This document shows, piece after piece, positions 4,795-7,505 of a stretch of DNA of 64,000 nucleotides. Position 1 is the stretch's first letter. Each line of letters opens with the position of its first letter. The notes below the pieces were generated by a model. It was given only the letters and a program-made list of their open reading frames with translations. It was not told where the DNA came from and ran no database searches. The position numbers and the translations under genes are program-made. Source of the DNA: Bdellovibrio bacteriovorus (lineage in GTDB: Bacteria; Bdellovibrionota; Bdellovibrionia; Bdellovibrionales; Bdellovibrionaceae); the NCBI RefSeq assembly GCF_001592745.1, contig NZ_LUKD01000005.1, positions 124,001 through 188,000 on the forward strand. Reading direction: 5' to 3'.

Positions 4795-5280
4795 ATGAAC
4801 ATGAAAAATTTCAAACTGACAGCATTTGTGAATCTTTACGGTCTTTTAAAAATTCCGTTGGTTTTATTCGTCAATCCACGCGTGATTGAGTCGACAGCGC
4901 AACGTTTCGTTTTAAAAATTCCTTTAAACTATAGGACTAAGAATCATCTTAATTCCATGTACTTTGGAGCTTTAGGAATAGGTGCTGAACTTTCAATTGC
5001 CGCAGCCGCCGTGGTGGCGATTTCTGAAAGTAAGCAGAAAATTGATTTTATTTTTAAAGATTTCTCAGGTCAGTACATCAAACGTGCCGACGGTGATGTG
5101 CATTTTATTTGTGATGAAATCGAAGCGGTTCGCAGTTTGATTGAAGAATCAAAAACCAACCCGGCTCGTCTTGAAAGAAAGATGAAAGGGTACGCCGTTG
5201 TGCCGAAATCCAATCCGACCGAGCCCGTAATGACTTACGAGCTCACTCTGTCGGTGCGTAACAGATCAATCAAGTCCTAG
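4795..5280 (+). CDS. DUF4442 (hotdog-fold, thioesterase-like) protein
   Basis: 161 residues. The stretch RTKNHLNSMYFGAL (about residues 43-56) matches the NH-x-x-S/T-M-x-x-GAL signature of DUF4442/PaaI-like hotdog proteins, where the Asn-His and following helix form the acyl-CoA site. The family is thought to hydrolyse or bind acyl thioesters, but no substrate is known here. The ATG at 4795 is closely followed by a second ATG at 4801; neither has a strong ribosome binding site. The last 15 bases overlap the convergent nitronate monooxygenase gene. Confidence 0.8.
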   Translation: MNMKNFKLTAFVNLYGLLKIPLVLFVNPRVIESTAQRFVLKIPLNYRTKNHLNSMYFGALGIGAELSIAAAAVVAISESKQKIDFIFKDFSGQYIKRADGDVHFICDEIEAVRSLIEESKTNPARLERKMKGYAVVPKSNPTEPVMTYELTLSVRNRSIKS

Positions 5281-6264
5281 GCTTGAAAGATTTTTTACGC
5301 TTTCATCATATTCGGTGATGAGTTTTTCATAAATCTCTTTCACGCTCAGAATTTCCTCCACCAGACCCACGGATTGGCCGGCTGTCCAAACAGTTTTCCA
5401 AGTGGGTTTGCTGGCGGCTTCTTCTAAAGACTTCATTCCCATAAGATGAATCAGCGGCACCATGTATTTCTTTGTCATCTTATGGTCTTTTAGAACTTTC
5501 ATCGCCCAAGGTAAATCCGTCCCGATTTTTTGCACATAAGGAGTGTTGATGACGGCCGCGGGAGTCCCAGACACTCTTGTCGTCATAACAATATCCTCAG
5601 GAGTGGATTTGATAATGGCTTCTTTGTAGGCTTCATCCACTTGTGCTTCATAGCTGGCAATGAATCTCGTTCCTACGCTCACGCCGGAGGCTCCTAAAGC
5701 TAAAACAGCAGACATCATCGAGCCGTGTGAAATTCCACCGGCAGCCACAATAGGAATTTGCAAACGAGTTTTGAGCCAAGGAATTAATACCAAAGGAGAA
5801 ATAGGCCCAGCATGTCCGCCAGCGCCACTGGATACCGCAATCACACCATCAGCGCCCATGTCTTGTACTTTCAAAGCGTGCTCTAAGTTTGTAACGTCAC
5901 AAAGAACTTTCGCTCCGTTTTTATGTGCTTCTTTAATCACCTCTTTGGGGCTTCCTAAGGAGGTAATAAAAAGTTCCACTCCATTGTCTAAGGCGTGTTT
6001 GAGGTCCTCGTTTTGGCGTGCATTGCTTTTATTAACGATGATGTTAACGCCGATAGGTTTTTTCGTGCGACTTTTGATTTCTTTCAAAGCTTCGACGTAT
6101 TTTTCAATCGGACGATAATTCAAGGCGGGGAAGGTTCCGATGCCACCGCTTTCACTGGCCTGAACGACGATGTCGGCGTTGCTCACTAGAAACATCGGTG
6201 CCGCGATGATGGGGTAATCGATCTTCATCATCTCCGTGAATGGCGTCTTGATTTTCTTTAACAT
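5266..6264 (-). CDS. Nitronate monooxygenase / 2-nitropropane dioxygenase family flavoprotein
   Basis: 332-residue TIM-barrel FMN enzyme of the NMO family, which oxidises alkyl nitronates such as propionate-3-nitronate. Diagnostic pieces include YPIIAAPMF at residues 17-25, GVNIIV, the FMN phosphate-binding IVAAGGISHG (about 173-182), and SSGAGGHAGP with the active-site-region His of class I/II enzymes. Related fatty-acid-synthesis enzymes (FabK) share this fold, so the assignment is to the family, not to a proven substrate. It lies 75 nt downstream of a TetR gene in the same direction, separated by a hairpin that contains its own AGGAGG ribosome binding site, which suggests linked control. 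Confidence 0.9.
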   Translation of the reverse strand: MLKKIKTPFTEMMKIDYPIIAAPMFLVSNADIVVQASESGGIGTFPALNYRPIEKYVEALKEIKSRTKKPIGVNIIVNKSNARQNEDLKHALDNGVELFITSLGSPKEVIKEAHKNGAKVLCDVTNLEHALKVQDMGADGVIAVSSGAGGHAGPISPLVLIPWLKTRLQIPIVAAGGISHGSMMSAVLALGASGVSVGTRFIASYEAQVDEAYKEAIIKSTPEDIVMTTRVSGTPAAVINTPYVQKIGTDLPWAMKVLKDHKMTKKYMVPLIHLMGMKSLEEAASKPTWKTVWTAGQSVGLVEEILSVKEIYEKLITEYDESVKNLSSLGLD

Positions 6265-6309
6265 AAAAAAACCCTCCTGAAGTCCTTTTTAAGGATACGA
6301 GGAGGGTTT
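6265..6309 (-). promoter_or_regulatory. Terminator-like hairpin that sequesters the nitronate monooxygenase ribosome binding site
   Basis: AAACCCTCCT (6269-6278) pairs perfectly with AGGAGGGTTT (6300-6309), with an inner TCCTT/AAGGA stem at 6283-6295. On the minus strand the 3' arm is AGGAGG, a perfect ribosome binding site, 8 nt before the ATG at 6264, and a run of T fills the gap. The structure could terminate tetR transcription, block translation, or both. Confidence 0.65.
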
Positions 6310-6339
6310 GAAGAGGCAAGGGAATTCTTAGTTTTAATC

Positions 6340-6966
6340 CTAAGGATTCAAGTAACGACGGATCAATAAGAACACTTCTTTTTTGATCGCATCTTCACGC
6401 TCTTGCGATTGCGGGCCTAATAAAGCCAGATGCAAAATATTATTAAAGCAGCTGACGATGAAAAGAGCCATCATGTCACGATCGCGACCAGGAATTGGTG
6501 GCATGTGAGCTAATACCGCTTTTTGATAATGTTCAAAGAACACACGGCGGGTATCCCAGTAGTCCAGCATCCCTTGTACGCCTTGCAATGCCGTTCTTAG
6601 GGGGCGGTTGTCGTGGAAACGTGTGAACCCGATGTCAATAAATGCATGAACTTTGGAATCCAAGTCTGTGGCTTGAAGCTTTGCTAAGTTTTCCTCGATA
6701 TAAGCGAGGTCTTTTTGCAAAAGGTCATCAATAACCGCAGCAACAATGGCTTCTTTGTTTGCGAAGAATTGATAAAGAGAACCGATACTCACTCCGGCCA
6801 TTTCTGCGATTTTATCTGTCGTAATCGCATGATACGGCTCTTGAACGAGAAGTCGGGCACAAGATTCCACAATGCTCGCAACGGTCTCTTTGGAACGTTT
6901 TTGAACCGGAATTTTGAGCATATATTTCTTTTCAGGACTTGTGTGGCTGATAGGAGCAGCACCCAT
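6340..6966 (-). CDS. TetR family transcriptional regulator
   Basis: 208 residues from the ATG at 6966, chosen because AAGGAGG sits 5-6 nt upstream; an ATG at 7008 would add 14 residues but has no ribosome binding site. The N-terminal helix-turn-helix (ITTDKIAEMAGVSIGSLYQFFANKEAI, about residues 49-74) is classic TetR, and the remaining helices form the ligand and dimer domain. It is the first gene of a pair with the nitronate monooxygenase, so it probably controls that gene and itself; the ligand is unknown. Confidence 0.9.
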   Translation of the reverse strand: MGAAPISHTSPEKKYMLKIPVQKRSKETVASIVESCARLLVQEPYHAITTDKIAEMAGVSIGSLYQFFANKEAIVAAVIDDLLQKDLAYIEENLAKLQATDLDSKVHAFIDIGFTRFHDNRPLRTALQGVQGMLDYWDTRRVFFEHYQKAVLAHMPPIPGRDRDMMALFIVSCFNNILHLALLGPQSQEREDAIKKEVFLLIRRYLNP

Positions 6967-7505
6967 AACTTCCTCCTTTCGAGGCTTATAAACTTTGCTC
7001 GTGTTCATATTCGGTCTTTAAGGGTTAATATTCAATACTAGTAACCAAAGTATCGATTAGCAGTACCACGGTGCCGACAGGGAGTACGTCTTTACTGAAT
7101 TTTAACATAAATCACGAACGTTAGTCTCATTTTAGTCCAGAGACCTTTAAGTCCAGCAATATTACTAGACCGCAATCAAAAATCGAATGAAATACGAAAT
7201 TTATAATATCTTCTGCCTAATAAATCACAAAAATCATCTCTGAAATTTCAGTTTCATAATGTAGATCCGTGGATCCTTCATCATTTTTTTGCCAACGATC
7301 GACATCAAAATACCCAAAAATGGGCTGTTTTAGCTTCTTTCGTAGTATGAATGAAGCGTCTTCTGGCGCGCTGCGCATGTTGTATTTTCCGCGGCTCCTC
7401 ACATTTTCGCTTCTAACAATTGTGAGGCGAAAATAAATTTGAATCATGATCTGCATCATCGACATGCGAGGCCGTATTCACGAAACTGACTGTAGGAGGC
7501 TTCGC
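6967..7505. other. 539-nt intergenic region between divergent tetR and luxR-type genes
   Basis: AT-rich and without a credible gene; the longest frame in it (minus strand, about 82 codons) lacks a ribosome binding site and a family signature. It must hold both divergent promoters. The only clear structure is an 11-bp inverted repeat, 7403-7413 with 7424-7434 (one G-T pair), about 70 nt before the LuxR-type start. Confidence 0.5.
7403..7434. promoter_or_regulatory. Inverted repeat upstream of the LuxR-type gene
   Basis: ATTTTCGCTTC (7403-7413) and GAGGCGAAAAT (7424-7434) form an 11-bp stem with one wobble pair and a 10-nt loop. It may be an operator for the downstream regulator or a weak terminator. 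No T run follows on the plus strand. Confidence 0.4.

Follow-up and report, generated by a model that had tools for sequence, protein, structure and literature searches.

The short interval between a tetR-family regulator gene and a nitronate monooxygenase-family gene (nmo) of Bdellovibrio bacteriovorus probably combines a terminator, a nested promoter and a ribosome binding site within a single hairpin, an arrangement that would insulate expression of nmo, or of a ClC-nmo gene pair in other species, from tetR transcription. The element lies in a 64,000-nucleotide stretch of DNA (the window), to which unprefixed coordinates refer, and can be pictured as a compact junction that would perform three jobs in about 55 nt. 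In RNA derived from tetR, the stem 6309-6300/6278-6269 and the T run behind it would act as an intrinsic terminator. The next gene would have a sigma70-type promoter of its own, TTGCCT-N16-TATCCT, with the hairpin's 5' arm falling within the spacer and its loop carrying the -10; transcription from this promoter is predicted to start near 6285, about 7 nt after TATCCT. The 3' arm would carry the Shine-Dalgarno sequence (SD) of that gene. RNA begun at the nested promoter should be translatable because it has no 5' arm to cover the SD, and read-through RNA from tetR, with both arms present, would either end at the T run or have its SD masked. Transcription start, termination and translational masking in the cell are what we infer here.

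Both genes are encoded on the minus strand in the order tetR, 75-nt gap, nmo, in agreement with the original prediction, which placed tetR upstream in the same direction. The tetR gene (6340 to 7008) carries a Pfam TetR_N domain (2.9e-12) and has an orthologue in all 24 genus genomes, and the sequences closest to it among public genomes come from Bdellovibrio; its actual start is likely to be the ATG at 6966, which is preceded by a conserved GGAGG. The nmo gene (5266 to 6264; Pfam NMO, 3.9e-50) has a match in 56 of 60 relatives. Read on the minus strand, the gap consists of GATTAAAACTAAGAATTCCC-TTGCCT-CTTCAAACCCTCCTCG-TATCCT-TAAAAAGGACTTC-AGGAGGGTTTTTTT-ATG. Its 5' arm, AAACCCTCCT (6300 to 6309), forms 10 pairs without mismatch with the 3' arm, AGGAGGGTTT (6269 to 6278), around a 21-nt loop, and AGGAGG occupies 6278-6273 within the 3' arm, where the SD is also found in most relatives. 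Seven T (6265 to 6271) would serve both as the terminator tail and as the spacer between SD and start codon, the first three of them also pairing within the stem, and the nmo ATG follows directly at 6264. The sequence thus bears out the perfect stem with an embedded AGGAGG, a T run and a following ATG that had been described beforehand.

The stem, its covariation, the fixed -35/-10 spacing, the conserved SD placement and the difference in SD opening energy are all computed results. An SD-bearing stem followed by a T run, the make-up of an intrinsic terminator, is found here (10 bp, seven T) and in most relatives. The suggestion that the element could be a terminator holds to this extent, with the exception of two relatives, L039 and L054, in which the T run has been lost. 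A consensus terminator scan did not call the element, because its loop is too long. In folding of the interval, proposed originally as a check, the transcribed strand taken alone proved no more than moderately unusual (z -1.8, with 13 of 200 shuffles equally stable); the plus-strand fold gave z -2.8. Compensatory changes, also foreseen as a check, were found among the genus relatives. Column -9 pairs as C-G in 11 genomes, T-A in 6 and G-C in 5, and column -3 as T-A in 16 and C-G in 6, tallies that count related genomes and not independent events. T-A, T-G and C-G all occur at column -6, and four Watson-Crick types at column -10.

What the original prediction overlooked is a conserved -35/-10 pair bracketing the 5' arm, and this pair makes it probable that the hairpin harbours a promoter for nmo itself. 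The comparison set comprised 24 genomes of the genus Bdellovibrio; an orthologous tetR beside nmo was sought in more distant genera and none was found, which confines the test to one genus. The -35-like hexamer TTGCCT (6314 to 6319, minus strand) and the -10-like hexamer TATCCT in the hairpin loop (6292 to 6297, minus strand) are separated by 16 nt, within the 16 to 18 nt expected of a sigma70-type promoter, and the pair is conserved. The motif CYCCYCGTATnCT follows the tetR stop in 23/24 genomes; in all 23, TATnCT and the CG preceding it are invariant, and in 21 of them TTGC stands at a fixed distance, giving the pattern TTGC(n)(T)-N16-TATnCT. The other two have the core motif with TTGTGA further upstream, 18 nt before TATGCT. 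When the pattern TTG-N11-CCYCCYCGTATnCT was searched, 21 of the 24 genomes gave exactly one match each, always behind tetR, and the reversed pattern used as a control gave 0 matches across the genus genomes.

Among the 21 distinct sequences, columns -22 to -19 (TTGC) are 95-100% conserved, the TTG at 95-100% and the next C at 95%, and TATnCT with the CG before it is invariant; the spacer has drifted over most of its unpaired length. The CG ahead of TATnCT is conserved even in ten genomes in which its C is unpaired. This conservation of an unpaired CG beside an invariant TATnCT is more readily expected of a promoter than of a structure. Taken together, a -35/-10-like pair at 16-nt spacing with the -10 in the loop is present in 21-23 of the 24 genomes, the start position being assumed from the motif. 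The RNA leader predicted from this promoter position spans 6265 to 6285 (minus strand) and is without the 5' arm.

The two hexamers each match the sigma70 consensus (TTGACA/TATAAT) at just 4/6 positions, and a consensus promoter scan with a threshold of 9 of 12 did not call the nested promoter, whose hexamers score 8 of 12. In the intergenic regions of this genome, pairs of TTGAC and TAnnnT are most frequent at a spacer of 17 nt, with 14 matches against about 2.6 in shuffles, and TTGCC paired with TAnnnT gives 5, 7 and 7 matches at spacers of 16 to 18. Genome-wide, TTGCNT-N16-TATnCT showed no enrichment, with 4 matches versus 14 in controls. The published transcription start map is confined to attack-phase promoters (PMC3627812).

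The accessibility of the SD was then computed for the two RNAs, with transcription from the nested promoter taken to begin 7 nt past the -10. Across the relatives, opening the SD costs a mean of 15.0 kcal/mol in RNA reading through from tetR, 4.5 kcal/mol in the predicted own leader, and 7.4 kcal/mol when the 5' side is shuffled. For this genome the values are 2.5 kcal/mol in the own leader versus 11.7 in read-through RNA. Pairing probabilities of the SD, which are less telling than the opening energy, are 0.99 for read-through RNA, 0.62 for the own leader and 0.81 for the shuffled control. With the covariation, these energies place the SD in the paired 3' arm of a hairpin predicted to form only in the long RNA, as in the phage T4 and sigG systems discussed below. 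Two genomes depart from the pattern: L039/G018 has lost the promoter motif together with its T run and keeps a 9-bp stem over the SD, and L035/G007 has an extra, unmasked SD after the hairpin. These two cases indicate that neither part is essential everywhere.

The gene served by the hairpin varies. Every one of the 24 genomes has nmo behind tetR; the gene stands immediately behind the hairpin in 11, where the tetR-nmo gap is 54-95 nt, whereas in 13 a ClC-family channel gene of about 1.2 kb (Voltage_CLC, 1.5e-76) lies between hairpin and nmo. This ClC gene begins right after the hairpin, usually with a TTG start, and nmo then follows. The SD in the 3' arm usually serves whichever gene comes first, nmo or ClC. 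The presence or absence of ClC (L004-L020 and others, 13/24 genomes) falls exactly between hairpin and nmo, as if the gene had been inserted or lost at that point with the module undisturbed. In L040 and L046, the ClC start behind the hairpin would have to be ATT, a rare start codon.

Several other explanations could account for part of these observations. The simplest is a plain tetR terminator whose 3' arm doubles as a ribosome binding site on account of the short gap, nmo being expressed by leaky read-through with no internal promoter. The stem and T run do make a good terminator in most genomes, and the gaps are indeed short where nmo directly follows, but we consider this account unlikely. 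Against it, the -35 and -10 do not vary and stay a fixed distance apart, both outside the stem; it would make a masked SD in read-through RNA the expression route, a poor one, for a gene found behind tetR in 24/24 genomes, and it sits badly with the reappearance of the promoter-hairpin pairing at an unrelated gene. Less probable again is a regulated attenuator or riboswitch, in which a signal, small RNA or protein would select the fold and so control nmo or ClC from the tetR RNA. Many attenuators likewise combine a terminator and an SD in a single hairpin, and the conserved CCTCCTCGTATnCT could act as an RNA recognition sequence. However, the stretch from tetR to the stem is merely a few tens of nt, and an antiterminator search across the relatives found no shared or conserved alternative partner for the 5' arm. 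Nor did Rfam return a family above its gathering score, the best being Phe_leader (28 bits versus 55) and PhotoRC-I (21.3 versus 45). The lack of both a shared antiterminator and an Rfam match at threshold makes a sensing attenuator less likely. Of the translational switch first suggested, then, the masking of the SD in computed read-through RNA stands, but no conserved antiterminator or ligand-type alternative fold accompanies it.

The remaining suggestion, a binding site for a regulator, fares worst. An inverted repeat adjoining tetR could in principle be a DNA operator for TetR or another regulator, but the hairpin loop, and with it the spacing of the arms, ranges from 9 to 40 nt among species. 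Such variation argues for pairing in RNA and against a dimeric DNA site, as a dimeric operator would not tolerate it, and we regard this reading as very improbable. A better candidate is the inverted repeat ATACT-N9-AGTAT before tetR (7035 to 7053), which keeps a fixed spacing and was found in most genomes when the tetR upstream regions were aligned; more probably, TetR acts on its own promoter through this candidate operator.

To return to the terminator-promoter hairpin, similar elements appear elsewhere in the genome. A scan of 2.4 of 3.76 Mb, covering 2171 open reading frames of at least 100 aa, found a terminator-like hairpin holding the SD (a strong stem, then a T run) at 10 ATG starts, compared with 0.2 expected when 5' flanks were swapped between genes. 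This excess, and the relatives' stem formed from altered letters, is stronger evidence than folding alone. Some of the ten hairpins may be ordinary terminators ahead of misassigned starts.

An independent recurrence precedes an elbB/DJ-1-like gene (C1:1997569, minus strand; relatives L240-L263), where TTGCC(A/T)-N17-TAnnnT and a hairpin over the SD occur together in 22/24 genomes, with a spacer of 17 nt in all 22. About ten lineages have the 5' arm ahead of the -10, and in about twelve it begins where the -10 ends; if transcription starts 7 nt beyond the -10, as assumed, the gene's own transcript retains at most 4 nt of the 5' arm. That both placements lead to the same outcome points to selection acting on the logic, although some of these genomes have a short T run or none. 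At an NmrA-like gene (C1:720669, plus strand; L168-L179), a 15-bp terminator-like hairpin over the SD is conserved with changes; the stem is present in all eight relatives with a readable start and TAnnAT lies in the loop, with no -35 found at the correct distance from it. An upstream TTGTAAGTA is also conserved at this gene. At C1:1193436 (plus strand), a 17-bp stem covers GGGAGG, and TTGCCT-N15-TAAAAT ends in the 5' arm. The downstream protein there is best conserved in its C-terminal half (about residues 62-150); close orthologues occur in just two other genomes, and the start context was found in its own genome only. Whether self-insulating junctions are general in Bdellovibrio, with a hairpin of about 55 nt combining terminator, promoter and ribosome binding site at several unrelated genes, re-formed independently, and with many genes translated only from own-promoter RNA, is a more tentative proposal, to which we give somewhat less than even chances.

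The masking logic itself is already known from phage T4 and from Bacillus subtilis sigG. In T4 and its relatives, a hairpin in read-through RNA hides the ribosome binding site of late genes and homing endonucleases such as I-TevI, and RNA from an internal late promoter, being without the 5' part, leaves the site free and is translated (PMC2988022). The Bdellovibrio case differs in being chromosomal, in its sigma70-type promoter and in its T run, so that it should also terminate; no early/late switch is known for it. For sigG, a large hairpin has been proposed to block translation in read-through RNA from the preceding operon; RNA initiated at the sigG promoter is unable to fold it (PMC5942855). 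With 20+ pairs, the sigG stem is far longer, and it is sporulation-specific, whereas in the Bdellovibrio hairpin the loop carries the -10, the promoter spacer supplies the 5' arm, and stem and T run resemble a terminator. An ordinary intrinsic (Rho-independent) terminator shares the GC-rich stem and following T run, but here the 3' arm and T run are also the SD and the spacer to the start codon, and the 5' arm and loop are also the promoter. In the fold-back inhibition of IS10, RNA coming in from outside masks the transposase ribosome binding site and RNA from the element's own promoter does not; IS10 thereby protects the transposase of a mobile element, in contrast to the housekeeping-type genes behind a regulator gene in Bdellovibrio. 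New relative to these precedents are the fused terminator, the use of the promoter spacer as the 5' arm, the genus-wide conservation and the signs of recurrence. Our literature searches, confined to open-access sources and hence weak evidence of absence, found no description of such a junction in Bdellovibrio.

These results carry a practical warning, since terminator callers and promoter callers run singly misread such junctions, and both scans missed the tetR-nmo element. If our reading is correct, the junction would also provide expression design with a compact insulated part. For the organism, it would mean that, through one short hairpin, a gene escapes transcription as well as translation from its neighbour's RNA while retaining its own promoter, with minimal intergenic DNA, in a conserved and possibly recurrent chromosomal arrangement with a built-in terminator.
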